This document shows, piece by piece, positions 1 to 63,804 of a DNA stretch of 64,000 nt. Position 1 is the stretch's first letter, and each line of letters opens with the position of its first letter. The notes under the pieces are model-generated. The model did not search any database and was not told where the DNA came from. It saw only the letters and a list, made by a program, of their open reading frames with translations. Position numbers and translations under genes: made by a program. The stretch is from Brachyhypopomus gauderio (taxonomy: Eukaryota > Chordata > Actinopteri > Gymnotiformes > Hypopomidae), in contig NW_027506898.1 in NCBI RefSeq assembly GCF_052324685.1, positions 176,001-240,000 of the forward strand, written 5' to 3'.

Positions 1-174
1 ATTCCAACTTGTATGGTGGAGATCAGAAAGTCTTGTCGGACGGTGTGGACTCTTGACATGTGCAAGCCCTTATTGTTGAGTACTCATATAGTACGAATCA
101 CATGTTTAAGTTGACACATTCTAACAGAGATTTGGCATGTAGTGTGTGAAAAGAATTATGGAAGCGTCAGGGTC

Positions 175-180
175 AAAAAA
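175..180 (-). terminator. Pol III T6 terminator of tRNA-Ala (unit 1; same offset in each unit)
   Basis: AAAAAA on the plus strand reads as T6 for the minus-strand Ala gene. It is the first run of four or more T after the gene and sits 50 nt past the discriminator, so the predicted primary transcript has an unusually long 3' trailer. Confidence 0.75.
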
Positions 181-230
181 CATGCACCAATTTTCTTTTT
201 CACTATCGAGCATGACTGAAATGCCTATAA

Positions 231-303
231 TGGAGAATGTGGGCATCGATCCCACTACTTCTCGCATGCTAAGCGAGCGCTCTACCACTTGAGCTAATTA
301 CCC
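231..303 (-). tRNA. tRNA-Ala-AGC: tRNA-Ala(AGC), unit 1
   Basis: Decodes GCU (and GCC/GCA after A34 becomes inosine). The 73-nt cloverleaf reads acceptor GGGTAAT/ATTCTCC, D arm GCTC/GAGC, anticodon loop TTAGCAT with AGC at 270-268, T arm GTGGG-ATCGATG-CCCAC, discriminator A73. The G3:T70 wobble is the universal alanine identity element, and A54 in the T loop is usual for this isoacceptor in vertebrates. This copy has the T4 form (T4:C69 mismatch) and a private G45A in the variable loop. Confidence 0.9.
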
Positions 304-636
304 TAGTAGGCTCAGTGCTCTTGTTGTTCAGATCCTGGACAAAAGCTCAAGTCCAAACTGAGAGTGCAAAGCTCTACAGACACTGCAATTGATGATTTTT
401 ACATTTCTTTACTGTGAACAGCTGCATGGACTTGCATTTTAGCAGTGGCTCAAAGGTTGAGTAGATTTAATTTGATCGTTGACCACCAATCAACCAAGAA
501 GAGAAGGAAACTGGAGGTGTCAACTAATGTCTGTGCTTGGTCGATTACCGCAGACATCCCTCCTCATACCATTTGTATACTTTCATGGAACAGGCCTACC
601 TCAGCCACACAACTTGCAGAAAGCCTCCCTCATGTA
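304..636. other. Divergent spacer between Ala and Ile 5' ends (unit 1; recurs every 769 bp)
   Basis: About 333 bp with no supported gene. It contains the short inverted repeat GTTGA...TCAAC (near 479-495) and GTATAC about 60 bp upstream of Ile. The run read as a 75-codon frame from a GTG at 445 ends inside the Ile anticodon loop and is not considered coding. Any upstream control of both tRNAs would have to lie here, but no recognised element is visible. Confidence 0.7.
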
Positions 637-710
637 GGCCGGTTAGCTCAGCTGGTTAGAGCGTGGTGCTAATAACGCCAAGGTCATGGGTTCGATCCCC
701 ATACGGGCCA
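637..710 (+). tRNA. tRNA-Ile-AAT: tRNA-Ile(AAT), unit 1
   Basis: Decodes AUU (and AUC/AUA after A34 becomes inosine). The 74-nt cloverleaf reads acceptor GGCCGGT/ACGGGCC with the family's usual G5:G68 non-pair, D arm GCTC/GAGC, anticodon stem TGGTG/CGCCA, loop CTAATAA with AAT at 671-673, T arm ATGGG-TTCGATC-CCCAT, discriminator A73. A box and B box are both intact. This is the reference form; haplotype A. Confidence 0.97.
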
Positions 711-999
711 ATGATGATAGTCTTTTGGATCAGATATGAGGCGGATTAGTGTTATTTTGGGTCTCTCAAATTCCAACTTGTATGGTGGAGATCAGAAAGT
801 CTTGTCGGACGGTGTGGACTCTTGACATGTGCGAGCCCTTATTGTTGAGTACTCATATAGTACGAATCACATGTTTAAGGTGACACATTCTAACAGAGAT
901 TTGGCATGTAGTGTGTGAAAAGAATTATGGAAGCGTCAGGGTCAAAAAACATGCACCAATTTTCTTTTTCACTATCGAGCATGACTGAAATGCCTATAA
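711..999. other. Convergent spacer between Ile 3' end and next Ala 3' end (recurs every 769 bp)
   Basis: About 289 bp holding the Ile terminator near its left end and the Ala terminator in its right third. No other gene or motif is recognised. Haplotype differences here include AAATTCC/AAATGCC, GGAGATC/GGTGATC, GTGCAAG/GTGCGAG and TTAAGTTG/TTAAGGTG. Confidence 0.7.
723..726 (+). terminator. Pol III T4 terminator of tRNA-Ile (unit 1; same offset in each full unit)
   Basis: TCTTTTGG lies 12 nt after the discriminator base, a normal RNA polymerase III stop. It is missing after the truncated Ile copies of units 69 and 70. Confidence 0.85.
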
Positions 1000-1072
1000 T
1001 GGAGAATGTGGGCATCGATCCCACTACCTCTCGCATGCTAAGCGAGCGCTCTACCACTTGAGCTAATTCCCC
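1000..1072 (-). tRNA. tRNA-Ala-AGC: tRNA-Ala(AGC), unit 2
   Basis: Reference G4 form: acceptor GGGGAAT pairs fully with ATTCTCC apart from the G3:T70 identity wobble. Confidence 0.97.
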
Positions 1073-1405
1073 TACGAGGCTCAGTGTTCTTGTTGTTCAG
1101 ATCCTCGACAAAAGCTCAAGTCCAAACTGAGAGTGCAAAGCTCTACAGACACTGCAATTGATGATTTTTACATTTCTTTACTGTGAACAGCTGCATGGAC
1201 TTGCATTTTAGCAGTGGCTCAAAGGTTGAGTAGATTTAATTTGATCGTTGACCACCAATCAACCAAGAAGAGAAGGGAACTGGAGGTGTCAACTAATGTC
1301 TGTGCTTGGTCGATTACCGCAGACATCCCTCCTCATACCATTTGTATACTTTCATGGAACAGGCCTACCTCAGCCACACAACTTGCAGAAAGACTCCATC
1401 ATGTA

Positions 1406-1479
1406 GGCCGGTTAGCTCAGCTGGTTAGAGCGTGGTGCTAATAACGCCAAGGTCATGGGTTCGATCCCCATACGGGCCA
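1406..1479 (+). tRNA. tRNA-Ile-AAT: tRNA-Ile(AAT), unit 2
   Basis: Reference form; haplotype B. Confidence 0.97.
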
Positions 1480-1768
1480 TTGATGATAGTCTTTTGGATC
1501 AGATATGAGGCGGATTAGTGTTATTTTGGGTCTCTCAAATTCCAACTTGTATGGTGGAGATCAGAAAGTCTTGTCGGACGGTGTGGACTCTTGACATGTG
1601 CAAGCCCTTATTGTTGAGTACTCATATAGTACGAATCACATGTTTAAGTTGACACATTCTAACAGAGATTTGGCATGTAGTGTGTGAAAAGAATTATGGA
1701 AGCGTCAGGGTCAAAAAACATGCACCAATTTTCTTTTTCACTATCGAGCATGACTGAAATGCCTATAA

Positions 1769-1841
1769 TGGAGAATGTGGGCATCGATCCCACTACCTCT
1801 CGCATGCTAAGCGAGCGCTCTACCACTTGAGCTAATTCCCC
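1769..1841 (-). tRNA. tRNA-Ala-AGC: tRNA-Ala(AGC), unit 3
   Basis: G4 form. Confidence 0.97.
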
Positions 1842-2174
1842 TACGAGGCTCAGTGTTCTTGTTGTTCAGATCCTCGACAAAAGCTCAAGTCCAAACTGAG
1901 AGTGCAAAGCTCTACAGACACTGCAATTGATGATTTTTACATTTCTTTACTGTGAACAGCTGCATGGACTTGCATTTTAGCAGTGGCTCAAAGGTTGAGT
2001 AGATTTAATTTGATCGTTGACCGCCAATCAACCAAGAAGAGAAGGAAACTGGAGGTGTCAACTAATGTCTGTGCTTGGTCGATTACCGCAAACATCCCTC
2101 CTCATACCATTTGTATACTTTCATGGAAAAGGCCTACCTCAGCCACACAACTTGCAGAAAGCATCCATCATGTA

Positions 2175-2248
2175 GGCTGGATAGCTCAGCTGGTTAGAGC
2201 GTGGTGCTAATAACGCCAAGGTCATGGGTTCGATCCCCATACGGGCCA
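2175..2248 (+). tRNA. tRNA-Ile-AAT: tRNA-Ile(AAT), unit 3
   Basis: Haplotype C: T4 gives a T4:G69 wobble and A7 opposes A66, so the base of the acceptor stem is unpaired. A box is otherwise intact. Confidence 0.88.
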
Positions 2249-2537
2249 TTGATGATAGTCTTTTGGATCAGATATGAGGCGGATTAGTGTTATTTTGGGT
2301 CTCTCAAATTCCAACTTGTATGGTGGAGATCAGAAAGTCTTGTCGGACGGTGTGGACTCTTGACATGTGCGAGCCCTTATTGTTGAGTACTCATATAGTA
2401 CGAATCACATGTTTAAGGTGACACATTCTAACAGAGATTTGGCATGTAGTGTGTGAAAAGAATTATGGAAGCGTCAGGGTCAAAAAACATGCACCAATTT
2501 TCTTTTTCACTATCGAGCATGACTGAAATGCCTATAA

Positions 2538-2610
2538 TGGAGAATGTGGGCATCGATCCCACTACCTCTCGCATGCTAAGCGAGCGCTCTACCACTTGAG
2601 CTAATTCCCC
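2538..2610 (-). tRNA. tRNA-Ala-AGC: tRNA-Ala(AGC), unit 4
   Basis: G4 form. Confidence 0.97.
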
Positions 2611-2943
2611 TACTAGGCTCAGTGCCCTTGTTGTTCAGATCCTGGACAAAAGCTCAAGTCCAAACTGAGAGTGCAAAGCTCTACAGACACTGCAATTGAT
2701 GATTTTTACATTTCTTTACTGTGAACAGCTGCATGGACTTGCATTTTAGCAGTGGCTCAAAGGTTGAGTAGATTTAATTTGATCGTTGACCGCCAATCAA
2801 CCAAGAAGAGAAGGAAACTGGAGGTGTCAACTAATGTCTGTGCTTGGTCGATTACCGCAGACATCCCTCCTCATACCATTTGTATACTTTCATGGAAAAG
2901 GCCTACCTCAGCCACACAACTTGCAGAAAGCGTCCATCATGTA

Positions 2944-3017
2944 GGCTGGTTAGCTCAGCTGGTTAGAGCGTGGTGCTAATAACGCCAAGGTCATGGGTTC
3001 GATCCCCATACGGGCCA
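2944..3017 (+). tRNA. tRNA-Ile-AAT: tRNA-Ile(AAT), unit 4
   Basis: Haplotype D: T4:G69 wobble, otherwise reference. Confidence 0.96.
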
Positions 3018-3306
3018 TTGATGATAGTCTTTTGGATCAGATATGAGGCGGATTAGTGTTATTTTGGGTCTCTCAAATGCCAACTTGTATGGTGGTGATC
3101 AGAAAGTCTTGTCGGACGGTGTGGACTCTTGACATGTGCGAGCCCTTATTGTTGAGTACTCATATAGTACGAATCACATGTTTAAGGTGACACATTCTAA
3201 CAGAGATTTGGCATGTAGTGTGTGAAAAGAATTATGGAAGCGTCAGGGTCAAAAAACATGCACCAATTTTCTTTTTCACTATCGAGCATGACTGAAATGC
3301 CTATAA

Positions 3307-3379
3307 TGGAGAATGTGGGCATCGATCCCACTACCTCTCGCATGCTAAGCGAGCGCTCTACCACTTGAGCTAATTACCC
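3307..3379 (-). tRNA. tRNA-Ala-AGC: tRNA-Ala(AGC), unit 5
   Basis: T4 form (T4:C69 mismatch). Confidence 0.91.
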
Positions 3380-3712
3380 TAGTAGGCTCAGTGCTCTTGT
3401 TGTTCAGATCCTGGACAAAAGCTCAAGTCCAAACTGAGAGTGCAAAGCTCTACAGACACTGCAATTGATGATTTTTACATTTCTTTACTGTGAACAGCTG
3501 CATGGACTTGCATTTTAGCAGTGGCTCAAAGGTTGAGTAGATTTAATTTGATCGTTGACCACCAATCAACCAAGAAGAGAAGGAAACTGGAGGTGTCAAC
3601 TAATGTCTGTGCTTGGTCGATTACCGCAGACATCCCTCCTCATACCATTTGTATACTTTCATGGAACAGGCCTACCTCAGCCACACAACTTGCAGAAAGC
3701 CTCCCTCATGTA

Positions 3713-3786
3713 GGCCGGTTAGCTCAGCTGGTTAGAGCGTGGTGCTAATAACGCCAAGGTCATGGGTTCGATCCCCATACGGGCCA
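3713..3786 (+). tRNA. tRNA-Ile-AAT: tRNA-Ile(AAT), unit 5
   Basis: Reference form; haplotype A. Confidence 0.97.
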
Positions 3787-4075
3787 ATGATGATAGTCTT
3801 TTGGATCAGATATGAGGCGGATTAGTGTTATTTTGGGTCTCTCAAATTCCAACTTGTATGGTGGAGATCAGAAAGTCTTGTCGGACGGTGTGGACTCTTG
3901 ACATGTGCGAGCCCTTATTGTTGAGTACTCATATAGTACGAATCACATGTTTAAGGTGACACATTCTAACAGAGATTTGGCATGTAGTGTGTGAAAAGAA
4001 TTATGGAAGCGTCAGGGTCAAAAAACATGCACCAATTTTCTTTTTCACTATCGAGCATGACTGAAATGCCTATAA

Positions 4076-4148
4076 TGGAGAATGTGGGCATCGATCCCAC
4101 TACCTCTCGCATGCTAAGCGAGCGCTCTACCACTTGAGCTAATTCCCC
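4076..4148 (-). tRNA. tRNA-Ala-AGC: tRNA-Ala(AGC), unit 6
   Basis: G4 form. Confidence 0.97.
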
Positions 4149-4481
4149 TACGAGGCTCAGTGTTCTTGTTGTTCAGATCCTCGACAAAAGCTCAAGTCCA
4201 AACTGAGAGTGCAAAGCTCTACAGACACTGCAATTGATGATTTTTACATTTCTTTACTGTGAACAGCTGCATGGACTTGCATTTTAGCAGTGGCTCAAAG
4301 GTTGAGTAGATTTAATTTGATCGTTGACCACCAATCAACCAAGAAGAGAAGGGAACTGGAGGTGTCAACTAATGTCTGTGCTTGGTCGATTACCGCAGAC
4401 ATCCCTCCTCATACCATTTGTATACTTTCATGGAACAGGCCTACCTCAGCCACACAACTTGCAGAAAGACTCCATCATGTA

Positions 4482-4555
4482 GGCCGGTTAGCTCAGCTGG
4501 TTAGAGCGTGGTGCTAATAACGCCAAGGTCATGGGTTCGATCCCCATACGGGCCA
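4482..4555 (+). tRNA. tRNA-Ile-AAT: tRNA-Ile(AAT), unit 6
   Basis: Reference form; haplotype B. Confidence 0.97.
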
Positions 4556-4844
4556 TTGATGATAGTCTTTTGGATCAGATATGAGGCGGATTAGTGTTAT
4601 TTTGGGTCTCTCAAATTCCAACTTGTATGGTGGAGATCAGAAAGTCTTGTCGGACGGTGTGGACTCTTGACATGTGCAAGCCCTTATTGTTGAGTACTCA
4701 TATAGTACGAATCACATGTTTAAGTTGACACATTCTAACAGAGATTTGGCATGTAGTGTGTGAAAAGAATTATGGAAGCGTCAGGGTCAAAAAACATGCA
4801 CCAATTTTCTTTTTCACTATCGAGCATGACTGAAATGCCTATAA

Positions 4845-4917
4845 TGGAGAATGTGGGCATCCATCCCACTACCTCTCGCATGCTAAGCGAGCGCTCTACC
4901 ACTTGAGCTAATTCCCC
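4845..4917 (-). tRNA. tRNA-Ala-AGC: tRNA-Ala(AGC), unit 7, T-loop C56G
   Basis: G4 form, but the T loop reads ATGGATG. C56 normally pairs with G19 at the elbow and is part of the B box, so both folding and transcription may suffer. Confidence 0.8.
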
Positions 4918-5250
4918 TACGAGGCTCAGTGTTCTTGTTGTTCAGATCCTCGACAAAAGCTCAAGTCCAAACTGAGAGTGCAAAGCTCTACAGACACTGC
5001 AATTGATGATTTTTACATTTCTTTACTGTGAACAGCTGCATGGACTTGCATTTTAGCAGTGGCTCAAAGGTTGAGTAGATTTAATTTGATCGTTGACCGC
5101 CAATCAACCAAGAAGAGAAGGAAACTGGAGGTGTCAACTAATGTCTGTGCTTGGTCGATTACCGCAAACATCCCTCCTCATACCATTTGTATACTTTCAT
5201 GGAAAAGGCCTACCTCAGCCACACAACTTGCAGAAAGCATCCATCATGTA

Positions 5251-5324
5251 GGCTGGTTAGCTCAGCTGGTTAGAGCGTGGTGCTAATAACGCCAAGGTCA
5301 TGGGTTCGATCCCCATACGGGCCA
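5251..5324 (+). tRNA. tRNA-Ile-AAT: tRNA-Ile(AAT), unit 7
   Basis: Haplotype C1: T4:G69 wobble. Confidence 0.96.
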
Positions 5325-5613
5325 TTGATGATAGTCTTTTGGATCAGATATGAGGCGGATTAGTGTTATTTTGGGTCTCTCAAATTCCAACTTGTATGGT
5401 GGAGATCAGAAAGTCTTGTCGGACGGTGTGGACTCTTGACATGTGCGAGCCCTTATTGTTGAGTACTCATATAGTACGAATCACATGTTTAAGGTGACAC
5501 ATTCTAACAGAGATTTGGCATGTAGTGTGTGAAAAGAATTATGGAAGCGTCAGGGTCAAAAAACATGCACCAATTTTCTTTTTCACTATCGAGCATGACT
5601 GAAATGCCTATAA

Positions 5614-5686
5614 TGGAGAATGTGGGCATCGATCCCACTACCTCTCGCATGCTAAGCGAGCGCTCTACCACTTGAGCTAATTCCCC
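5614..5686 (-). tRNA. tRNA-Ala-AGC: tRNA-Ala(AGC), unit 8
   Basis: G4 form. Confidence 0.97.
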
Positions 5687-6019
5687 TACTAGGCTCAGTG
5701 CTCTTGTTGTTCAGATCCTGGACAAAAGCTCAAGTCCAAACTGAGAGTGCAAAGCTCTACAGACACTGCAATTGATGATTTTTACATTTCTTTACTGTGA
5801 ACAGCTGCATGGACTTGCATTTTAGCAGTGGCTCAAAGGTTGAGTAGATTTAATTTGATCGTTGACCGCCAATCAACCAAGAAGAGAAGGAAACTGGAGG
5901 TGTCAACTAATGTCTGTGCTTGGTCGATTACCGCAGACATCCCTCCTCATACCATTTGTATACTTTCATGGAAAAGGCCTACCTCAGCCACACAACTTGC
6001 AGAAAGCGTCCATCATGTA

Positions 6020-6093
6020 GGCTGGTTAGCTCAGCTGGTTAGAGCGTGGTGCTAATAATGCCAAGGTCATGGGTTCGATCCCCATACGGGCCA
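6020..6093 (+). tRNA. tRNA-Ile-AAT: tRNA-Ile(AAT), unit 8
   Basis: Haplotype D with T4:G69 wobble and C39T, which turns the last anticodon-stem pair into G31:T39. Confidence 0.93.
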
Positions 6094-6382
6094 TTGATGA
6101 TAGTCTTTTGGATCAGATATGAGGCGGATTAGTGTTATTTTGGGTCTCTCAAATGCCAACTTGTATGGTGGAGATCAGAAAGTCTTGTCGGACGGTGTGG
6201 ACTCTTGACATGTGCAAGCCCTTATTGTTGAGTAATCATATAGTACGAATCACATGTGTAAGTTGACACATTCTAACAGAGATTTGGCATGTAGTGTGTG
6301 AAAAGAATTATGGAAGCGTCAGGGTCAAAAAACATGCACCAATTTTCTTTTTCACTATCGAGCATGACTGAAATGCCTATAA

Positions 6383-6455
6383 TGGAGAATGTGGGCATCG
6401 ATCCCACTACCTCTCGCATGCTAAGCGAGCGCTCTACCACTTGAGCTAATTCCCC
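6383..6455 (-). tRNA. tRNA-Ala-AGC: tRNA-Ala(AGC), unit 9
   Basis: G4 form. Confidence 0.97.
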
Positions 6456-6788
6456 TACGAGGCTCAGTGTTCTTGTTGTTCAGATCCTCGACAAAAGCTC
6501 AAGTCCAAACTGAGAGTGCAAAGCTCTACAGACACTGCAATTGATGATTTTTACATTTCTTTACTGTGAACAGCTGCATGGACTTGCATTTTAGCAGTGG
6601 CTCAAAGGTTGAGTAGATTTAATTTGATCGTTGACCGCCAATCAACCAAGAAGAGAAGGAAACTGGAGGTGTCAACTAATGTCTGTGCTTGGTCGATTAC
6701 CGCAAACATCCCTCCTCATACCATTTGTATACTTTCATGGAAAAGGCCTACCTCAGCCACACAACTTTCAGAAAGCATCCATCATGTA

Positions 6789-6862
6789 GGCTGGTTAGCT
6801 CAGCTGGTTAGAGCGTGGTGCTAATAACGCCAAGGTCATGGGTTCGATCCCCATACGGGCCA
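6789..6862 (+). tRNA. tRNA-Ile-AAT: tRNA-Ile(AAT), unit 9
   Basis: Haplotype C2: T4:G69 wobble; trailer CTGATGATAGGCTTTT keeps the terminator. Confidence 0.96.
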
Positions 6863-7151
6863 CTGATGATAGGCTTTTGGATCAGATATGAGGCGGATTA
6901 GTGTTATTTTGGGTCTCTCAAATGCCAACTTGTATGGTGGTGATCAGAAAGTCTTGTCGGACGGTGTGGACTCTTGACATGTGCGAGCCCTTATTGTTGA
7001 GTACTCATATAGTACGAATCACATGTTTAAGGTGACACATTCTAACAGAGATTTGGCATGTAGTGTGTGAAAAGAATTATGGAAGCGTCAGGGTCAAAAA
7101 ACATGCACCAATTTTCTTTTTCACTATCGAGCATGACTGAAATGCCTATAA

Positions 7152-7224
7152 TGGAGAATGTGGGCATCGATCCCACTACCTCTCGCATGCTAAGCGAGCG
7201 CTCTACCACTTGAGCTAATTACCC
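7152..7224 (-). tRNA. tRNA-Ala-AGC: tRNA-Ala(AGC), unit 10
   Basis: T4 form (T4:C69 mismatch). Confidence 0.91.
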
Positions 7225-7557
7225 TAGTAGGCTCAGTGCTCTTGTTGTTCAGATCCTGGACAAAAGCTCAAGTCCAAACTGAGAGTGCAAAGCTCTACAG
7301 ACACTGCAATTGATGATTTTTACATTTCTTTACTGTGAACAGCTGCATGGACTTGCATTTTAGCAGTGGCTCAAAGGTTGAGTAGATTTAATTTGATCGT
7401 TGACCACCAATCAACCAAGAAGAGAAGGAAACTGGAGGTGTCAACTAATGTCTGTGCTTGGTCGATTACCGCAGACATCCCTCCTCATACCATTTGTATA
7501 CTTTCATGGAACAGGCCTACCTCAGCCACACAACTTGCAGAAAGCCTCCCTCATGTT

Positions 7558-7631
7558 GGCCGGTTAGCTCAGCTGGTTAGAGCGTGGTTCTAATAACGCC
7601 AAGGTCATGGGTTCGATCCCCATACGGGCCA
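7558..7631 (+). tRNA. tRNA-Ile-AAT: tRNA-Ile(AAT), unit 10, anticodon-stem mismatch
   Basis: Haplotype A1: G31T leaves T31 facing C39 at the top of the anticodon stem. All else is reference. Confidence 0.85.
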
Positions 7632-7920
7632 TTGATGATAGTCTTTTGGATCAGATATGAGGCGGATTAGTGTTATTTTGGGTCTCTCAAATTCCAACTT
7701 GTATGGTGGAGATCAGAAAGTCTTGTCGGACAGTGTGGACTCTTGACATGTGCGAGCCCTTATTGTTGAGTACTCATATAGTACGAATCACATGTTTAAG
7801 GTGACACATTCTAACAGAGATTTGGCATGTAGTGTGTGAAAAGAATTATGGAAGCGTCAGGGTCAAAAAACATGCACCAATTTTCTTTTTCACTATCGAG
7901 CATGACTGAAATGCCTATAA

Positions 7921-7993
7921 TGGAGAATGTGGGCATCAATCCCACTACCTCTCGCATGCTAAGCGAGCGCTCTACCACTTGAGCTAATTCCCC
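7921..7993 (-). tRNA. tRNA-Ala-AGC: tRNA-Ala(AGC), unit 11, T-loop C56T
   Basis: G4 form with T loop ATTGATG, changing the elbow base C56 and the B box. Confidence 0.8.
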
Positions 7994-8326
7994 TACTAGG
8001 CTCAGTGCTCTTGTTGTTCAGATCCTGGACAAAAGCTCAAGTCCAAACTGAGAGTGCAAAGCTCTACAGACACTGCAATTGATGATTTTTACATTTCTTT
8101 ACTGTGAACAGCTGCATGGACTTGCATTTTAGCAGTGGCTCAAAGGTTGAGTAGATTTAATTTGATCGTTGACCGCCAATCAACCAAGAAGAGAAGGGAA
8201 CTGGAGGTGTCAACCAATGTCTGTGCTTGGTCGATTACCGCAGACATCCCTCCTCATACCATTTGTATATTTTCATGGAAAAGGCCTACCTCAGCCACAC
8301 AACTTGCAGAAAGCATCCATCATGTA

Positions 8327-8400
8327 GGCCGGTTAGCTCAGCTGGTTAGAGCGTGGTGCTAATAACGCCAAGGTCATGGGTTCGATCCCCATACGGGCCA
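8327..8400 (+). tRNA. tRNA-Ile-AAT: tRNA-Ile(AAT), unit 11
   Basis: Reference form; haplotype E. Confidence 0.97.
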
Positions 8401-8689
8401 TTGATGATAGTCTTTTGGATCAGATATGAGGCGGATTAGTGTTATTTTGGGTCTCTCAAATGCCAACTTGTATGGTGGAGATCAGAAAGTCTTGTCGGAC
8501 GGTGTGGACTCTTGACATGTGCGAGCCCATATTGTTGAGTACTCATATAGTACGAATCACATGTTTAAGGTGACACATTCTAACAGAGATTTGGCATGTA
8601 GTGTGTGAAAAGAATTATGGAAGCGTCAGGGTCAAAAAACATGCACCAATTTTCTTTTTCACTATCGAGCATGACTGAAATGCCTATAA

Positions 8690-8762
8690 TGGAGAATGTG
8701 GGCATCGATCCCACTACCTCTCGCATGCTAAGCGAGCGCTCTACCACTTGAGCTAATTACCC
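8690..8762 (-). tRNA. tRNA-Ala-AGC: tRNA-Ala(AGC), unit 12
   Basis: T4 form (T4:C69 mismatch). Confidence 0.91.
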
Positions 8763-52928: not shown

Positions 52929-52984
52929 GGCTGGTTAGCTCAGCTGGTTAGAGCATGGTGCTAATAATGCCAAGGTCATGGGTT
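52929..52984 (+). pseudogene. Truncated tRNA-Ile(AAT), unit 69
   Basis: Keeps the acceptor 5' strand (T4), D arm, anticodon arm (G26A, C39T) and T-stem 5' strand, then breaks off in the T loop at the 99-bp deletion. The B box, acceptor 3' strand and terminator are gone. Confidence 0.95.
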
Positions 52985-52986
52985 TC
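52985..52986. other. Junction of 99-bp deletion, first copy
   Basis: The T-loop of Ile in unit 69 runs from ATGGGTT straight into CAGAAAGTC, which normally lies at offset 24 of the next unit. The Ile 3' end, its terminator and the start of the next unit are lost. One or two T/C bases at the join are ambiguous. Confidence 0.92.
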
Positions 52987-53598: not shown

Positions 53599-53654
53599 GG
53601 CTGGTTAGCTCAGCTGGTTAGAGCATGGTGCTAATAATGCCAAGGTCATGGGTT
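53599..53654 (+). pseudogene. Truncated tRNA-Ile(AAT), unit 70
   Basis: Same truncation point and same G26A and C39T changes as unit 69. Confidence 0.95.
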
Positions 53655-53656
53655 TC
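53655..53656. other. Junction of 99-bp deletion, second copy
   Basis: Same breakpoint as at 52985, 670 bp downstream, with the same flanking variants (CTCTAGACACGTGCTAGCC). It is a duplicate of one deletion event rather than a second independent loss. Confidence 0.92.
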
Positions 53657-53862
53657 AGAAAGTCTTGTCGGACGGTGTGGACTCTAGACACGTGCTAGCC
53701 CTTATTGTTGAGTACTCATATAGTAAGAATCACATGTTTAAGGTGACACATTGTAACAGGGATTTGGCATGTAGCGTGTGAAAAGAATTATGGAAGCGTC
53801 AGGGTCAAAAAACATGCACCAATTTTCTTTTTCACTATCGAGCATGACTGAAATGCCTATAA

Positions 53863-53935
53863 TGGAGAATGTGGGCATCGATCCCACTACCTCTCGCATG
53901 CTAAGCGAGCGCTCTACCACTTGAGCTAATTCCCC
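53863..53935 (-). tRNA. tRNA-Ala-AGC: tRNA-Ala(AGC), unit 71
   Basis: G4 form. Confidence 0.96.
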
Positions 53936-54267
53936 TACTAGGCTCAGTGCTCTTGTTGTTCAGATCCTGGACAAAAGCTCAAGTCCAAACTGAGTGTACA
54001 AAGCTCTACAGACACTACAATTGATGATTTTTACATTTCTTTACTGTGAACAGCTGCATGGACTTGCATTTTAGCAGTGGCTCAAAGGTTGAGTAGATTT
54101 AATTTGATCGTTGACCGCCAATCAACCAGAAGAGAAGGGAACTGGAGGTGTCAACTAATGTCTGTGGTTGGTCAATTACCGCAGACATCCCTCCTCATAC
54201 CATTTGTATACTTTCATGGAACAGGCCTTCCTCAGCCACACAACTTGCAGAAAGAGTCCATCATGTA

Positions 54268-54341
54268 GGCTGGTTAGCTCGGCTGGTTAGAGCGTGGTGC
54301 TAATAACGCCAAGGTCATGGGTTCGATCCCCATACGGGCCA
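54268..54341 (+). tRNA. tRNA-Ile-AAT: tRNA-Ile(AAT), unit 71, A14G
   Basis: T4:G69 wobble and A14G (GCTCGGCTGG). A14 normally pairs with T8 and is part of the A box. The unit has lost one A in its spacer (CAACCAGAAG), so the next unit starts at a 768-bp distance. Confidence 0.8.
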
Positions 54342-54630
54342 TTGATGATAGTCTTTTGGATCAGATATGAGGTGGATTAGTGTTATTTTGGGTCTCTCAA
54401 ATGCCAACTTGTATGGTGGAGATCAGAAAGTCTTGTCGGACGGTGTGGACTCTTGACATGTGTGAGCCCTTATTGTTGAGTACTCATATAGTACGAATCA
54501 CATGTTTAAGGTGACACATTCTAACAGAGATTTGGCATGTAGTGTGTGAAAAGAATTATGGAAGCGTCAGGGTCAAAAAACATGCACCAATTTTCTTTTT
54601 CACTATCGAGCATGACTGAAATGCCTATAA

Positions 54631-54703
54631 TGGAGAATGTGGGCATCGATCCCACTACCTCTCGCATGCTAAGCGAGCGCTCTACCACTTGAGCTAATTC
54701 CCC
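54631..54703 (-). tRNA. tRNA-Ala-AGC: tRNA-Ala(AGC), unit 72
   Basis: G4 form. Confidence 0.96.
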
Positions 54704-55036
54704 TACTAGGCTCAGTGCTCTTGTTGTTCAGATCCTGGACAAAAGCTCAAGTCCAAACTGAGAGTGCAAAGCTCTACAGACACTACAATTGATGATTTTT
54801 ACATTTCTTTACTGTGAACAGCTGCATGGACTTGCATTTTAGCAGTGGCTCAAAGGTTGAGTAGATTTAATTTGATCGTTGACCGCCAATCAACCAAGAA
54901 GAGAAGGGAACTGGAGGTGTCAACTAATGTCTGTGCTTGGTCGATTACCGCAGACATCCCTCCTCATACCATTTGTATACTTTCATGGAACAGGCCTACC
55001 TCAGCCACACAACTTGCAGAAAGCGTCCATCATGTA

Positions 55037-55110
55037 GGCCGGTTAGCTCAGCTGGTTAGAGTGTGGTGCTAATAACGCCAAGGTCATGGTTTTGATCCCC
55101 ATACGGGCCA
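55037..55110 (+). pseudogene. Decayed tRNA-Ile(AAT), unit 72
   Basis: C25T, G53T and C56T together: the T arm reads ATGGT-TTTGATC, losing the invariant G53:C61 pair and the B-box core. Probably inactive. Confidence 0.8.
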
Positions 55111-55399
55111 TTGATGATAGTCTTTTGGATCAGATATGAGGCGGATTAGTGTTATCTTGGGTCTCTCAAATGCCAACTTGTATGGTGGAGATCAGAACGT
55201 CTTGTCGGACGGTGTGGACTCTTGACACGTGCAAGCCCTTATTGTTGAGTACTCATATAGTAAGAATCACATGTTTAAGGTGACACATTCTAACAGAGAT
55301 TTGGCATGTAGTGTGTGAAAAGAATTATGGAAGCGTCAGGGTCAAAAAACATGCACCAATTTTCTTTTTCACTATCGAGCATGACTGAAATACCTATAA

Positions 55400-55472
55400 T
55401 GGAGAATGTGGGCATCAATCCCACTACCTCTCGCATGCTAAGCAAGCGCTTTACCACTTGAGCTAATTCCTC
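55400..55472 (-). pseudogene. Decayed tRNA-Ala(AGC), unit 73
   Basis: Acceptor GAGGAAT (A2:C71 mismatch), G22A breaking the D stem, C29T (wobble with G41) and C56T. The anticodon is still AGC. Four changes in one copy suggest loss of function. Confidence 0.75.
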
Positions 55473-55805
55473 TACCAGGCTCAGTGCTCTTGTTGTTCAG
55501 ATCCTGGACAAAAGCTCAAGTCCAAACTGAGAGTGCAAAGCTCTACAGACACTACAATTGATGATTTTTACATTTCTTTACTGTGAACAGCTGCATGGAC
55601 TTGCATTTTAGCAGTGGCTCAAAGGTTGAGTAGATTTAATTTGATCGTTGACCGCCAATCAACCAAGAAGAGAAGGGAAATGGAGGTGTCAACTAATGTC
55701 TGTGCTTGGTCGATTACCGCAGACATCCCTCCTCATACCATTTGTATACTTTCATGGAACAGGCCTACCTCAGCCACACAACTTGCAGAAAGACTCCATC
55801 ATGTA

Positions 55806-55879
55806 GGCCGGTTAGCTCAGCTGGTTAGAGCGTGGTGCTAATAACGCCAAGGTCATGGGTTCGATCCCCATACGGGCCA
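55806..55879 (+). tRNA. tRNA-Ile-AAT: tRNA-Ile(AAT), unit 73
   Basis: Reference form despite the damaged Ala in the same unit. Confidence 0.96.
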
Positions 55880-56168
55880 TTGATGATAGTCTTTTGGATC
55901 AGATATGAGGCGGATTAGTGTTATTTTGGGTCTCTCAAATGCCAACTTGTATGGTGGAGATCAGAAAGTCTTGTCGGACGGTGTGGACTCTTGACACGTG
56001 CAAGCCCTTATTGTTGAGTACTCATATAGTAAGAATCACATGTTTAAGGTGACACATTCTAACAGAGATTTGGCATGTAGTGTGTGAAAAGAATTATGGA
56101 AGCGTCAGGGTCAAAAAACATGCACCAATTTTGTTTTTCACTATAGAGCATATCTGAAATACCTATAA

Positions 56169-56241
56169 TGGAGAATGTGGGCATCGATCCCACTACCTCT
56201 CGCATGCTAAGCGAGCGCTCTACCACTTGAGCGAATTCCCC
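56169..56241 (-). tRNA. tRNA-Ala-AGC: tRNA-Ala(AGC), unit 74, A9C
   Basis: Stems are all paired (G4 form). A9C touches a tertiary-interaction base and the A box. Confidence 0.85.
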
Positions 56242-56574
56242 TACTAGGCTCAGTGCTCTTGTTGTTAAGATCCTGGACAAAAGCTCAAGTCCAAACTGAG
56301 AGTGCAAAGCTCTACAGACACTACAATTGATGATTTTTACATTTCTTTACTGTGAACAGCTGCATGGACTTACATTTTAGCAGTGGCTCAAAGGTTGAGT
56401 AGATTTAATTTGATCGTTGACCGCCAATCAACCAAGAAGAGAAGGGAACTGGAGGTGTCAACTAATGTCTGTGCTTGGTCGATTACCGCAGACATCCCTC
56501 CTCATACCATTTGTATACTTTCATGGAACAGGCCTTCCTCAGCCACACAACTTGCAGAAAGTGCCCATCATGTA

Positions 56575-56648
56575 TGCCGGTTAGCTCAGCTGGTTAGAGC
56601 GTAGTGCTAATAACGCCAAGGTCATGGGTTTGATTCCCATACGGGCCA
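56575..56648 (+). pseudogene. Decayed tRNA-Ile(AAT), unit 74
   Basis: G1T (no pair with C72), G28A (A28:C42 mismatch), C56T and C60T (T loop TTTGATT). Acceptor, anticodon arm and B box are all hit. Confidence 0.82.
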
Positions 56649-56937
56649 TTGATGATAGTCTTTTGGATCAGATATGAGGCGGATTAGTGTTATTTTGGGT
56701 CTCTCAAATGCCAACTTGTATGGTGGAGATCAGAAAGTCTTGTCGGACGGTGTGGACTCTTGACACGTGCAAGCCCTTATTGTTGAGTACTCATATAGTA
56801 AGAATCACATGTTTAAGGTGACACATTCTAACAGAGATTTGGCATGTAGTGTGTGAAAAGAATTATGGAAGCGTCAGGGTCAAAAAACATGCACCAATTT
56901 TCTTTTTCACTATCGAGCATGACTGAAATACCTATAA

Positions 56938-57010
56938 TGGAGAATGTGGGCATCGATCCCACTACCTCTCGCACGCTAAGCAATCGCTTTACCACTTGAG
57001 CTAATTCCTC
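56938..57010 (-). pseudogene. Decayed tRNA-Ala(AGC), unit 75
   Basis: A2:C71 mismatch, G22A, anticodon stem ATTGC/GCGAG with an A27:G43 mismatch, and A37G next to the AGC anticodon. A37 is the base converted to m1I in eukaryotic tRNA-Ala, so G37 would remove that modification. Confidence 0.78.
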
Positions 57011-57343
57011 TACCAGGCTCAGTGCTCTTGTTGTTCAGATCCTGGACAAAAGCTCAAGTCCAAACTGAGAGTGCAAAGCTCTACAGACACTACAATTGAT
57101 GATTTTTACATTTCTTTACTGTGAACAGCTGCATGGACTTGCATTTTAGCAGTGGCTCAAAGGTTGAGTAGATTTAATTTGATCGTTGACCGCCAATCAA
57201 CCAAGAAGAGAAGGGAAATGGAGGTGTCAACTAATGTCTGTGCTTGGTCGATTACCGCAGACATCCCTCCTCATACCATTTGTATACTTTCATGGAACAG
57301 GCCTACCTCAGCCACACAACTTGCAGAAAGACTCCATCATGTA

Positions 57344-57417
57344 GGCCGGTTAGGTCAGCTGGTTAGAGCGTGGTGCTAATAACGCCAAGGTCATGGGTTC
57401 GATCCCCATACGGGCCA
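57344..57417 (+). tRNA. tRNA-Ile-AAT: tRNA-Ile(AAT), unit 75, C11G
   Basis: D stem GGTC/GAGC: G11 faces G24 and the A box is altered. The rest is reference, so activity is doubtful. Confidence 0.72.
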
Positions 57418-57706
57418 TTGATGATAGTCTTTTGGATCAGATATGAGGCGGATTAGTGTTATTTTGGGTCTCTCAAATGCCAACTTGTATGGTGGAGATC
57501 AGAAAGTCTTGTCGGACGGTGTGGACTCTTGACACGTGCAAGCCCTTATTGTTGAGTACTCATATAGTAAGAATCACATGTTTAAGGTGACACATTCTAA
57601 CAGAGATTTGGCATGTAGTGTGTGAAAAGAATTATGGAAGCGTCAGGGTCAAAAAACATGCACCAATTTTGTTTTTCACTATAGAGCATATCTGAAATAC
57701 CTATAA

Positions 57707-57779
57707 TGGAGAATGTGGGCATCGATCCCACTACCTCTCGCATGCTAAGCGAGCGCTCTACCACTTGAGCGAATTCCCC
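57707..57779 (-). tRNA. tRNA-Ala-AGC: tRNA-Ala(AGC), unit 76, A9C
   Basis: Duplicate of the unit 74 copy. Confidence 0.85.
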
Positions 57780-58112
57780 TACTAGGCTCAGTGCTCTTGT
57801 TGTTAAGATCCTGGACAAAAGCTCAAGTCCAAACTGAGAGTGCAAAGCTCTACAGACACTACAATTGATGATTTTTACATTTCTTTACTGTGAACATCTG
57901 CATGGACTTACATTTTAGCAGTGGCTCAAAGGTTGAGTAGATTTAATTTGATCGTTGACCGCCAATCAACCAAGAAGAGAAGGGAACTGGAGGTGTCAAC
58001 TAATGTCTGTGCTTGGTCGATTACCGCAGACATCCCTCCTCATACCATTTGTATACTTTCATGGAACAGGCCTTCCTCAGCCACACAACTTGCAGAAAGT
58101 GCCCATCATGTA

Positions 58113-58186
58113 TGCCGGTTAGCTCAGCTGGTTAGAGCGTAGTGCTAATAACGCCAAGGTCATGGGTTTGATTCCCATACGGGCCA
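58113..58186 (+). pseudogene. Decayed tRNA-Ile(AAT), unit 76
   Basis: Duplicate of the unit 74 copy: G1T, G28A, C56T, C60T. Confidence 0.82.
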
Positions 58187-58475
58187 TTGATGATAGTCTT
58201 TTGGATCAGATATGAGGCGGATTAGTGTTATTTTGGGTCTCTCAAATGCCAACTTGTATGGTGGAGATCAGAAAGTCTTGTCGGACGGTGTGGACTCTTG
58301 ACACGTGCAAGCCCTTATTGTTGAGTACTCATATAGTAAGAATCACATGTTTAAGGTGACACATTCTAACAGAGATTTGGCATGTAGTGTGTGAAAAGAA
58401 TTATGGAAGCGTCAGGGTCAAAAAACATGCACCAATTTTCTTTTTCACTATCGAGCATGACTGAAATACCTATAA

Positions 58476-58548
58476 TGGAGAATGTGGGCATCGATCCCAC
58501 TACCTCTCGCACGCTAAGCAATCGCTTTACCACTTGAGCTAATTCCTC
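58476..58548 (-). pseudogene. Decayed tRNA-Ala(AGC), unit 77
   Basis: Duplicate of the unit 75 copy, including A37G and the A27:G43 mismatch. Confidence 0.78.
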
Positions 58549-58881
58549 TACCAGGCTCAGTGCTCTTGTTGTTCAGATCCTGGACAAAAGCTCAAGTCCA
58601 AACTGAGAGTGCAAAGCTCTACAGACACTACAATTGATGATTTTTACATTTCTTTACTGTGAACAGCTGCATGGACTTGCATTTTAGCAGTGGCTCAAAG
58701 GTTGAGTAGATTTAATTTGATCGTTGACCGCCAATCAACCAAGAAGAGAAGGGAAATGGAGGTGTCAACTAATGTCTGTGCTTGGTCGATTACCGCAGAC
58801 ATCCCTCCTCATACCATTTGTATACTTTCATGGAACAGGCCTACCTCAGCCACACAACTTGCAGAAAGACTCCATCATGTA

Positions 58882-58955
58882 GGCCGGTTAGCTCAGCTGG
58901 TTAGAGCGTGGTGCTAATAACGCCAAGGTCATGGATTCGATCCCCATACGGGCCA
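58882..58955 (+). tRNA. tRNA-Ile-AAT: tRNA-Ile(AAT), unit 77, G53A
   Basis: T stem ATGGA replaces the invariant G53:C61 pair and alters the B box. Probably weak. Confidence 0.72.
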
Positions 58956-59244
58956 TTGATGATAGTCTTTTGGATCAGATATGAGGCGGATTAGTGTTAT
59001 TTTGGGTCTCTCAAATGCCAACTTGTATGGTGGAGATCAGAAAGTCTTGTCGGACGGTGTGGACTCTTGACACGTGCAAGCCCTTATTGTTGAGTACTCA
59101 TATAGTAAGTATCACATGTTTAAGGTGACACATTCTAACAGAGATTTGGCATGTAGTGTGTGAAAAGAATTATGGAAGCGTCAGGGTCAAAAAACATGCA
59201 CCAATTTTCTTTTTCACTATCGAGCATGACTGAAATGCCTATAA

Positions 59245-59317
59245 TGGAGAATGTGGGCATCGATTCCACTACCTCTCGCATGCTAAGCCAGCGCTCTACC
59301 ACTTGAGCTAATTCCCC
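59245..59317 (-). tRNA. tRNA-Ala-AGC: tRNA-Ala(AGC), unit 78, two stem mismatches
   Basis: C29G gives G29:G41 in the anticodon stem and G53A gives A53:C61 in the T stem. Likely impaired. Confidence 0.72.
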
Positions 59318-59650
59318 TACTAGGCTGAGTGCTCTTGTTGTTCAGATCCTGGACAAAAGCTCAAGTCCAAACTGAGAGTGCAAAGCTCTACAGACACTAC
59401 AATTGATGATTTTTACATTTCTTTACTGTGAACAGCTGCATGGACTTGCATTTTAGCAGTGGCTCAAATGTTGAGTAGATTTAATTTGATCGTTGACCGC
59501 CAATCAACCAAGAAGAGAAGGGACCTGGAGGTGTCAACTAATGTCTGTGCTTGGTCGATTACCGCAGACATCCCTCCTCATACCATTTGTATACTTTCAT
59601 GGAACAGGCCTTCCTCAGCCACACAACTTGCAGAAAGCACCCATCATGAA

Positions 59651-59724
59651 GGCCGGTTAGCTCAGCTGGTTAGAGCATGGTGCTAATAACGCCAAGGTCA
59701 TGGGTTCGATCCCCATACGGGCCA
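59651..59724 (+). tRNA. tRNA-Ile-AAT: tRNA-Ile(AAT), unit 78
   Basis: Reference stems; only G26A between the D and anticodon stems. Confidence 0.95.
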
Positions 59725-60013
59725 TTGATGATAGTCTTTTGGATCAGATATGAGGCGGATTAGTGTTATTTTGGGTCTCTCAAATGCCAACTTGTCTGGT
59801 GGAGATCAGAAAGTCTTGTCGGACGGTGTGGACTCTTGACACGTGCGAGCCCTTATTGTTGAGTACTCATATAGTAAGAATCACATGTTTAAGGTGACAC
59901 ATTCTAACAGAGATTTGGCATGTAGTGTGTGAAAAGAATTATGGAGGCGTCAGGGTCAAAAAACATGCACCAATTTTCTTTTTCACTATCGAGCATGACT
60001 GATATGCCTATAA

Positions 60014-60086
60014 TGGAGAATGTGGGCATCGAACCCACTACCTCTCGCATGCTAAGCGAGCGCTCTACCACTTGAGCTAATTCCCC
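60014..60086 (-). tRNA. tRNA-Ala-AGC: tRNA-Ala(AGC), unit 79, A54T
   Basis: G4 form. The T loop reads TTCGATG, so this one copy has the canonical T54 in place of the A54 seen in the others. Confidence 0.93.
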
Positions 60087-60419
60087 TACTAGGCTGAGTG
60101 CTCTTGTTGTTCAGATCCTGGACAAAAGCTCAAGTCCAAACTGAGAGTGCAAAGCTCTACAGACACTACAATTGATGATTTTTACATTTCTTTACTGTGA
60201 ACAGCTGCATGGACTTGCATTTTAGCAGTGGCTCAAAGGTTGAGTAGATTTAATTTGATTGTTGACCGCCAATCAACCAAGAAGAGAAGGGAACTGGAGG
60301 TGTCAACTAATGTCTGTGCTTGGTCGATTACCGCAGACATCCCTCCTCATACCATTTGTATACTTTCATGGAACAGGCCTTCCTCAGCCACCCAACTTGC
60401 AGAAAATCTCCATCCTGTA

Positions 60420-60493
60420 GGCTGGTTAGCTCACCTGGTTAGAGCGTGGTGCTAATAACGCCAAGGTCATGGGTTCGATCCCCATACGGGCCA
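60420..60493 (+). tRNA. tRNA-Ile-AAT: tRNA-Ile(AAT), unit 79, G15C
   Basis: T4:G69 wobble and G15C (GCTCACCTGG), which breaks the G15:C48 tertiary pair and changes the A box. Confidence 0.8.
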
Positions 60494-60782
60494 TTGTTTA
60501 TAGTCTTTTGGATCAGAAATGAGGCGGATTAGTGTTATCTTGGGTCTCTCAAGTGCCAACTTGTATGTTGGAGATCAGAACGTCTTGTCGGACGGTGTGG
60601 ACTCTTGACACGTGCGAGCCCTTATTGTTGAGTACTCATATAGTAAGAATCACATGTTTAAGGTGACACATTCTAACAGAGATTTGGCATGTAGTGTGTG
60701 AAAAGAATTATGGTAGCGTCATGGTCAAAAAACATGCACCAATTTTCTTTTTCACTATCGAGCATGACTGAAATACCTATAA

Positions 60783-60855
60783 TGGAGAATGTGGGCATCG
60801 ATCCCACTACCTCTCGCATGCTAAGCTAGCGCTCTACCACTTGAGCTAATTCCTC
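60783..60855 (-). tRNA. tRNA-Ala-AGC: tRNA-Ala(AGC), unit 80
   Basis: C29A (A29:G41 mismatch) and acceptor GAGGAAT (A2:C71 mismatch). Confidence 0.75.
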
Positions 60856-61184
60856 TACCAGGCTCAGTGCTCTTGTTGTTCAGATCCTGGACAAAAGCTC
60901 AAGTTCAAACTGAGAGCGCAAAGCTCTACAGACACTACATTTGATGATTTTTGCATTTCTTTACTGTGAAAAGCTGCATGGACTTGCATTTTAGCAGTGG
61001 CTCAAAGGTTGAGTAGATTTAATTTGATCGTTGACCGCCAATCAACCAAGAAGAGAAGGGAACTGGAGGTGTCAACTAATGTCTGTGCTTGGTCGATACC
61101 GCAGACATCCCTCCTCATACCATTTGTATAATTTCATTGAACGGGCCTTCCTCTGCCACACAGCTTGCAGAAAGTATCAATCAA

Positions 61185-61258
61185 GGCAGGTTAGCTCAGC
61201 TGGTTAGAGCATGGTGCTAATAACGCCAAGGTCATGGGTTCAACCTCCATACGGGCCA
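61185..61258 (+). tRNA. tRNA-Ile-AAT: tRNA-Ile(AAT), unit 80
   Basis: C4A opposes G69; G26A; T arm ATGGG-TTCAACC-TCCAT, still foldable with a G:T at the loop-closing pair. A short deletion in the 5' flank joins TCAA to the gene. Confidence 0.8.
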
Positions 61259-61547
61259 TTGATGATAGTCTTTTGGATCAGATATGAGGCGGATCAGTAT
61301 TATCTTGGGTCTCTCAAATGCCAACTTGTATGTTGGAGATCAGAACGTCTTGTCGGACGGTGTGGACTCTTGACACGTGCGAGCCCTTATTGTTGAGTAC
61401 TCATATAGTAAGAATCACATGTTTAAGGTGACACATTCTAACAGAGATTTGGCATGTAGTGTGTGAAAAGAATTATGGCAGCATCAGGGTCAAAAAACAG
61501 GCACCAGTTTTCTTTTTCACTATCAAGCATGACTGAAATGCCTATAA

Positions 61548-61620
61548 TGGAGAAAGTGGGCATCGATCCCACTACCTCTCGCATGCTAAGCGAGCACTCT
61601 ACCACTTGAGCTAATTCCCC
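61548..61620 (-). tRNA. tRNA-Ala-AGC: tRNA-Ala(AGC), unit 81
   Basis: A66T opposes T7 and C25T makes a G10:T25 wobble. Otherwise G4 form. Confidence 0.8.
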
Positions 61621-61953
61621 TAGTAGGCTCAGTCCTCTTGTTGTTCAGATCCTGGACAAAAGCTCAAGTCCAAACTGAGAGCGCAAAGTTCTACATACAC
61701 TACAATTGATGATTTTTACATTTCTTTACTGTGAACAGCTGCATGGACTTGCATTTTAGCAGTGGCTCAAAGGTTGAGTAGAATAATTTTGATCGTTGAC
61801 CGCCAATCAACCAAGAAGAGAAGAGAACTGTAGGTGTCAACTAATGTCTGTGCTTGGTCGATTACCGCAGACATCCCTCCTCATACCATTTGTATAATTT
61901 CACTGAACGGGCCTTCCTCTGCCACACAGCTTGCAGAAAGTATCCATCAAGTA

Positions 61954-62027
61954 GGCCGGTTAGCTCAGCTTGTTAGAGTGTGGTGCTAATAACGCCAAGG
62001 TCATGGGTTCAACCTCCATACGGGCCT
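61954..62027 (+). tRNA. tRNA-Ile-AAT: tRNA-Ile(AAT), unit 81 (last copy)
   Basis: G18T (G18 normally contacts the T loop), C25T, A73T discriminator change, and the same TTCAACC T loop as unit 80. The discriminator change argues against normal charging. Confidence 0.72.
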
Positions 62028-62122
62028 TTGATGATTGTCTTTTGGATCAGATATGAGGCGGATCAGTGTTATTTTGGGTCTCTCAAATGCCAACTTGTAT
62101 GTTGGAGATAAGAACGTCTTGT

Positions 62123-63800: not shown

Positions 63801-63804
63801 ATTA

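Follow-up and report, generated by a model that had tools for sequence, protein, structure and literature searches.

We examined a 64,000-nucleotide window of the Brachyhypopomus gauderio genome (assembly GCF_052324685.1, contig NW_027506898.1, here called C54, positions 176001-240000), nearly all of which is occupied by a tandem array of paired transfer RNA (tRNA) genes, tRNA-Ala(AGC) and tRNA-Ile(AAT). The sequence suggests that the window samples a tRNA macro-array that is methylated in the germline, has grown by unequal exchange, is or was transcribed in the germline by RNA polymerase III (Pol III) and may encode an oocyte-type tRNA set; we give this combined reading about an even chance of being correct. 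An isodecoder of the array's own, the decay of its CpG sites and a mutational trace immediately upstream of its genes together fit an oocyte-type tRNA array.

A mismatch scan of the window placed exactly 81 Ala copies on the minus strand and 81 Ile copies on the plus strand in a single register, confirming the 81 units and 162 copies counted in the first-pass annotation. The array runs from 1 to 62122 (no strand), in units that are mostly 769 bp long (two are 670, one 768 and one 765 bp), and each unit is a head-to-head pair in which Ala points left and Ile points right. In core units the 5' ends of the two genes lie 333 bp apart, and the distance from Ile to the following Ala is 289 bp. The Ala-to-Ala spacing is 769 bp for 68 consecutive units, then 670, 670, 768, eight times 769, and 765; spacing this exact rules out a chance origin of the periodicity. 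The 68 core units are identical in length, are variable at only 44 positions and differ from the majority sequence at a mean of 7.1 positions (0.93%). Units to the right of a pair that carries a 99-bp deletion have 11-44 substitutions, and units 73-81 at the right edge (55170..62122) have 17-44 from the core consensus, compared with the core mean of 7.1. The right end at about 62122 had been placed correctly; beyond it lies an isolated 69-bp remnant of an older unit (62194-62262, plus strand), comprising an Ile 3' end and spacer at 85-87% identity. A uniform middle and a decaying edge make up the usual picture of a tandem array. Rfam searches of 1.6 kb, or two units, at E values up to 1 found no RNA other than tRNA in the spacer, and Tandem Repeats Finder (score 50) found no short tandem repeats between genes in the window.

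The copies score well as genes. ARAGORN called 156 tRNA genes in the window, and Rfam at its gathering score returned 160 matches (83 and 77 by window halves), all of them to RF00005, all end to end, and the weakest scoring 33.8 bits where 29 is the cut-off. The two of the 162 copies that fall short are truncated Ile genes in adjacent units (52929..52985 and 53599..53655, both plus strand), which have lost the T arm and 3' end to the same 99-bp deletion. The first Ala copy (231..303, minus strand; 50.2 bits) and the first Ile copy (637..710, plus strand; 60.7 bits) are each supported by ARAGORN, RF00005 and stem pairing. Both anticodons are kept throughout (AGC in 81/81 and AAT in 81/81), and every one of the 81 Ala copies has A73 and the G3:U70 pair, the identity mark of alanine tRNAs. 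The A-box pattern occurs in 79 of 81 copies of either gene and the B-box pattern in 73 Ala and 71 Ile copies. A T4 Pol III terminator begins 13 nt past Ile in 79/81 copies (723..726, plus strand, in the first unit), and a T6 terminator begins 51 nt past Ala in 81/81 (175..180, minus strand). With A and B boxes, terminators, G3:U70 and anticodons in place, most copies appear to hold what transcription and charging need, and from these elements we infer function itself.

Stem pairing is less uniform. Ala stems are fully paired in 48 copies, have a 4:69 acceptor mismatch as their sole defect in 27 and show other mismatches in 6; a 5:68 mismatch is the only one in 60 Ile copies, and the other 21, including both truncated copies, have more. 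The 5:68 mismatch is also present in the Ile consensus and in an isolated Ile gene on contig C1. The 4:69 mismatch arises from a G4-to-U change at unit position 300 that is common to the 27 Ala genes, a sub-type, probably of lower quality, that has spread in the array. The first-pass annotation had named a predominance of pseudogenes as one result that would count against it, and scoring with ARAGORN and Rfam gave no such result; its description of the copies as mostly cloverleaf-intact needs qualifying, as an acceptor mismatch is present in a third of the Ala copies.

The array extends well beyond the window. The assembly comprises 796.5 Mb in 840 contigs, and tRNA gene counts outside the window are lower bounds. 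On C54 the array occupies the 238 kb from the first base of the contig to 238,122, with 301 Ile copies found, so that the leftward continuation predicted from the window reaches base 1. The same unit recurs, inverted, on C1, from an N stretch at ~43.987 Mb up to 44,197,483, where it meets other sequence without a gap (210 kb, a block that was read in parts only), and again on contig C632 (37 kb, of which the first 1.5 kb was read; matches extend to 32.6 kb). In the genome as a whole, an invariant spacer word of 44 bases has 287 forward and 311 reverse matches (at least 598); all of the forward matches are on C54, and the reverse ones are, among the matches listed, in the C1 block. Together C54, C1 and C632 carry about 622 Ala/Ile units if C632 is array throughout. 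An earlier comparison to ribosomal DNA (rDNA), as an array of real tRNA genes larger than the window, is thus borne out, with ~300 units on C54 and, on the same proviso for C632, ~620 in the assembly. The orientations of C54 (reversed), C632 and C1 would permit one array broken by the assembly, and arrays of this kind do break assemblies. A comparison of the C54 edge with the neighbourhood of the C1 block for signs of allelism matched only short repeats of 41-75 bases.

Three observations concern the interior and borders of these blocks. At C1:44197483 the far end of the block stops at about unit position 546 and passes without a gap into TTTAAGACC-rich sequence that resembles an interspersed repeat. 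The only large interruption seen in the 238 kb of array on C54 is a long terminal repeat (LTR) retrotransposon at C54:22163-29325 (7.2 kb), which encodes protease, reverse transcriptase, RNase H and integrase in that order; its two 910-bp terminal repeats are identical, and it is a very recent insertion. A tRNA-derived transposable element (a short interspersed element or a Dada insertion) was rejected as an account of the array itself, as the unit is not dispersed: the 287 forward spacer matches and the 236 forward matches to the array-type Ile gene are all on C54, and the reverse-strand places among the matches listed are all in the C1 block.

The order of the units also shows a pattern. On C54, 12 stretches of 5-9 adjacent units have near-identical counterparts at lags of 8 to 88 units, whereas the longest run was 3 when the unit order was shuffled 50 times; in the window core alone the longest run is 9, compared with a maximum of 6 in 300 shuffles. 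The recurrence of such runs indicates that blocks of several units were duplicated, as unequal exchange predicts. We propose that a 769-bp head-to-head Pol III gene pair was amplified by multi-unit unequal exchange to ~620 copies, and that continuing exchange would keep the array uniform while older, diverged units survive at its edge; exchange is the process that we infer behind this sequence pattern. Recurring blocks of 5-9 near-identical units could also be assembly errors, in which case the true copy number would be much smaller, and the array does break contigs (C54 starts inside it, the C1 block borders on an N stretch and C632 looks array-filled). We regard such inflation as highly improbable. 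The block lags are varied (8-88), which unequal exchange predicts as well, and the C1 block passes directly, with no gap, into other sequence. The usual assembly error for arrays of this kind is collapse, not inflation.

The Ala/Ile array is not the only one in the genome. A genome-wide tRNA scan, in which 63 of 74,024 first-look candidates were scored, led to two more. On contig C71 the repeated unit is 971 bp long and comprises a Leu(TAG), a Glu(CTC, reverse) and a Lys(TTT) gene; its spacer word has 423 genome matches, so there are at least 423 units, and among the matches listed some fall at 52.04-52.14 Mb of C1 and the others on C71, starting with its first bases. As with the Ala/Ile array, one block of this Leu/Glu/Lys array lies on C1 and another at the beginning of a smaller contig. 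On C7, at 24.155-24.29 Mb, a 1,219-bp unit carries Thr(TGT); its spacer word has 235 matches (at least 235 units), and the matches listed are all on C7, where a single strong tRNA match at 23.2 Mb stands apart from the array. Unit samples from the Leu/Glu/Lys and Thr arrays have no BLAST similarity to the Ala/Ile unit at E 0.1. A looser cluster was seen at C4:23.030-23.033 Mb, with further matches to 23.061 Mb, in which Thr (TGT, CGT) genes occur with a gene called as Ala(CGC), and copies of a shared 44-base word lie 945 and 1,523 bp apart.

Variation between Ala/Ile units is concentrated immediately upstream of the genes. The sample consists of the 254 units on C54 that keep strict register, of which 75 lie in the window; the other 47 of the 301 lie at an end or beside a length change. 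The hypervariable sites fall in the 20-bp 5' flanks of Ala (unit positions 304-323; 304..323 of the window, minus strand) and Ile (unit positions 617-636; 617..636, plus strand), where 24/40 sites are variable (Ala 13/20, Ile 11/20), compared with 93/582 in the spacer outside genes and 5' flanks (Fisher 2e-9). The 20-bp 3' flanks, with 13/40 variable sites, are counted within the 93/582. The 5' flank count is the same with CpG positions left out, and when the flank mask is rotated through all 768 circular shifts, just 5 reach the observed value, all of them shifts of 1-3 bases that overlap the true place. A test in the window core alone (9 flank sites among 32 variable spacer sites, P 1.4e-4) is not independent, because the flank hypothesis arose from the core site list; a scan of the core for clustering of variable sites (maximum in 30 bp) was not significant (P 0.11). 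Independent tests are provided by the units outside the window and by the other two arrays. Outside the window, 21/40 flank sites are variable against a proportion of 0.107 elsewhere, and 2/768 shifts reach that value. The Leu/Glu/Lys array has 11/60 variable upstream sites against 16/617 (P 5e-6, 20 units), and the Thr array 3/20 against 18/1,124 (P 0.005; a sample of three full units and a partial fourth, with one indel column counted). In the 13 right-edge units the flank excess is weaker (12/40 vs 84/582, P 0.02). The upstream excess is the only variation signal repeated in all three arrays.

Where tRNA genes are transcribed, raised mutation directly beside them has been described as transcription-associated mutagenesis (Thornlow et al. 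2018, as cited in PMC8113476). Since a heritable trace of this kind needs activity in the germline, the upstream pattern suggests that the array genes are transcribed there by Pol III now or were in the recent past. The use of raised mutation in the immediate flanks as a mark of germline activity is our own and not a published defining feature; the mark is present at the 5' flanks of all three arrays. Other causes, namely fork stalling, conversion tracts or a constrained spacer, may also produce an upstream excess.

tRNA genes bind TFIIIC and can block replication forks. The array might have a structural role, as a chromatin boundary or replication-fork barrier to which the tRNA products are incidental, as has been proposed for the human 1q23.3 repeat. 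We consider this very unlikely. Interference with forks is raised in PMC2888827, and the human repeat is reported to bind CTCF (PMC4041453), but a crude consensus scan of one unit found no CTCF-like site, the best candidate having 4/14 mismatches.

The second mutational signal is decay of CpG sites. Transitions have occurred at 22/40 CpG positions compared with 67/729 other positions in the 254 units (P 4e-12), and at 15/38 compared with 44/731 in the right-edge units (P 1e-8). Such an excess is the expected trace of germline CpG methylation, and it points to methylation of the array CpGs in the germline.

The array-type Ile gene also differs from the isolated one. A word from the Ile anticodon arm has 249 forward matches, of which 248 are on C54; the remaining one belongs to an isolated gene (C1:39,100,455) whose T-stem is GCGGG/CCCGT and whose D-loop is GTTGG. 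Array Ile genes have T-stem ATGGG/CCCAT and D-loop GCTGG, including a compensated change at 50:64 relative to the isolated gene, and the exact array-type 3' half has 236 forward matches, all on C54. This comparison covers the forward-strand matches and, for the reverse strand, places among the matches listed. As read from the genes, the array and the isolated gene make different Ile tRNAs (for Ile, with one isolated gene compared). A search with the canonical Ile T-arm pattern gave 0 matches and is uninformative, as the isolated gene itself is one base off the pattern.

One explanation for so many copies is that the genes, like rDNA, are high-output ones serving tissues throughout the body that need much Ala and Ile tRNA. 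Promoters, terminators and identity elements are kept in most copies, and the forward copies of the array-type Ile 3' half are confined to C54, as this explanation would have it. We nevertheless think body-wide output distinctly unlikely: the CpG transition excess implies long methylation in the germline, a separate isodecoder gene exists outside the array, and gene number is reported to be no predictor of tRNA level in zebrafish embryos (PMC11574265).

An oocyte-type function is plausibly the most economical one that joins the traits described above. The array would then supply a distinct isodecoder pool that is stocked in the egg and is largely silent in the body, from genes whose CpGs are methylated in the germline and which are, or were, transcribed there by Pol III. 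Zebrafish offers a precedent. Egg isodecoders are reported to come from repetitive regions and later ones from isolated genes (PMC11417395), large tRNA clusters are described as near-completely CpG-methylated in early embryos (PMC11574265), and a maternal-specific role of the chromosome 4 tRNA genes has been put forward as a hypothesis (PMC11075544). A bolder extension, which we hold to be doubtful, is that dedicated macro-arrays (Ala/Ile, Leu/Glu/Lys and Thr), each a satellite of its own that comprises hundreds of kilobases of Pol III genes, form an egg-only translation kit. In these arrays CpG methylation would coexist with germline transcription, and all six of the upstream flanks examined bear a mutational footprint.

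Several results weigh against an oocyte-type array. Genes are no less variable than spacer: 54/147 gene sites vary in the 254 units, compared with 93/582 in the spacer outside the 5' flanks (Fisher 1e-7), and in the right-edge units the figures are 27/147 and 96/622 (P 0.38), so that the conservation expected of tRNA genes relative to spacer is either absent or reversed. The within-gene excess by itself fails the shift test (113/768 shifts reach it), and the Leu/Glu/Lys array has no gene excess (10/234, P 0.26) and no raised 3' flanks (2/60). With no statistic applied, the non-CpG spectrum on the gene sense strand has no obvious strand bias, which transcription-linked damage might be expected to give. 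The 4:69 mismatch in 27/81 Ala copies adjoins the G3:U70 identity pair. In zebrafish, tRNA abundance is reported to have no significant correlation with gene number (PMC11574265), and presence in the zebrafish egg is no proof of oocyte-specific transcription.

Because the genes do not fall below the spacer in variability, they carry no signal of per-copy purifying selection, and a silent array could look alike in this respect. The main rival is a mostly silent tRNA satellite, spread by exchange and kept in methylated heterochromatin, which would persist through its multiplication by unequal exchange, with the tRNA supplied by isolated genes. The CpG transition excess, the lack of gene conservation relative to spacer, the existence of an isolated Ile gene and the near-complete methylation reported for large zebrafish clusters (PMC11574265) are all consistent with it. 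It does not lead one to expect upstream hypervariability in three unrelated arrays, which would call for Pol III activity, nor the retention of anticodons and G3:U70 in 81/81 copies and of terminators in 81 and 79 of 81, although young age could explain the latter. On balance we judge a silent satellite to be rather unlikely.

If the germline-transcribed, oocyte-type reading is true, the arrays are a natural map of mutation rate around Pol III initiation at base resolution, drawn from hundreds of near-neutral copies, in which transcription-associated mutagenesis could be followed free of the purifying selection by which it is masked where tRNA genes are single-copy. An upstream footprint found in three unrelated arrays would also offer a way to infer the germline activity of tRNA arrays from an assembly. 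Fish genomes contain thousands of repetitive tRNA genes. tRNAs with excessive gene copies are filtered from database predictions (PMC11417395). With a clean unit of two genes that has isodecoders of its own, tRNA sequencing alone would suffice to test the maternal-specific hypothesis.

The remaining features of the window lie to the right of the array. On visual inspection, broken reading frames at 62560-63612 (minus strand) resemble a CACTA-type transposase (motif DIMHDILEGV), and those at 63745-63999 (plus strand) the end of an L2-like long interspersed element; in general look these transposon remnants are fish-like. Five open frames in this right flank had no Pfam match at E 0.1.

The Ala/Ile array shares features with several known systems. 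Teleost tRNA clusters of fifty and more genes have been reported, and very large clusters occur in Nematostella as well (Bermudez-Santana et al. 2010, PMC2888827). Those of zebrafish and stickleback are likewise described as very large, with genes within 1 kb of one another and mixed isotypes (PMC2888827, PMC11574265, PMC11075544), and by the measure of less than 1000 nt between genes and at least 50 members the present array belongs with them (289 and 333 bp, 160/162 copies). Zebrafish clusters are also methylated, as the CpG-decay trace suggests here, and their isodecoders differ from those of isolated genes (PMC11417395). In contrast, tRNA pairs in zebrafish are nearly all parallel, most often K-N, K-S and R-T (PMC2888827), whereas a strict 769-bp unit with a head-to-head pair is found here. 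Given the reported clusters and at least two further arrays in this genome, the array is less unusual than the first-pass annotation implied; its head-to-head orientation is unusual beside the parallel pairs of zebrafish.

Entamoeba resembles B. gauderio in having several separate arrays with their own small tRNA sets and homogenised units (PMC2652664); the sets here are Ala/Ile, Leu/Glu/Lys and Thr. It differs in that the genome here is much larger, in that at least one tRNA gene lies outside the arrays (with 63/74,024 candidates scored), and in the short tandem repeats reported between genes in E. histolytica and E. dispar, which were not found here. The human 1q23.3 repeat is also a tandem macrosatellite that bears tRNA genes, with copy number variation there and block duplications here; it is reported to have a 7.3-kb GC-rich unit with five tRNA genes, 9-43 units and CTCF binding (PMC4041453). 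The corresponding values for the Ala/Ile array are 769 bp, two genes and ~620 units, with no CTCF-like site found.

Vertebrate precedent for high-copy tandem units also exists in the 3.18-kb tRNA repeat of Xenopus, which has a longer unit with about eight tRNA genes. The SYY tRNA cluster of Arabidopsis is smaller than the Ala/Ile array. As described in PMC12308677, the plant cluster is likewise tandem with two isotypes and combines high methylation with transcription in particular cells, an expression that has been shown there. The maternal 5S genes of zebrafish chromosome 4 (PMC11075544) and the amplified 5S rDNA of pike (PMC5437419) are likewise Pol III genes in huge tandem repeats, with heavy CpG methylation reported in pike and a second gene type elsewhere in zebrafish; they differ in encoding 5S rRNA rather than tRNA, and oocyte expression is reported for the zebrafish 5S genes, whereas for the Ala/Ile array it is a proposal. 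A literature search covering titles and abstract openings, with few subscription journals, returned nothing on an Ala/Ile tandem array or on transcription-associated mutagenesis inside tRNA arrays. Large clusters of tRNA genes in fish are already known; what is new is the regular head-to-head unit, the size of the array and the repeated mutation footprint.

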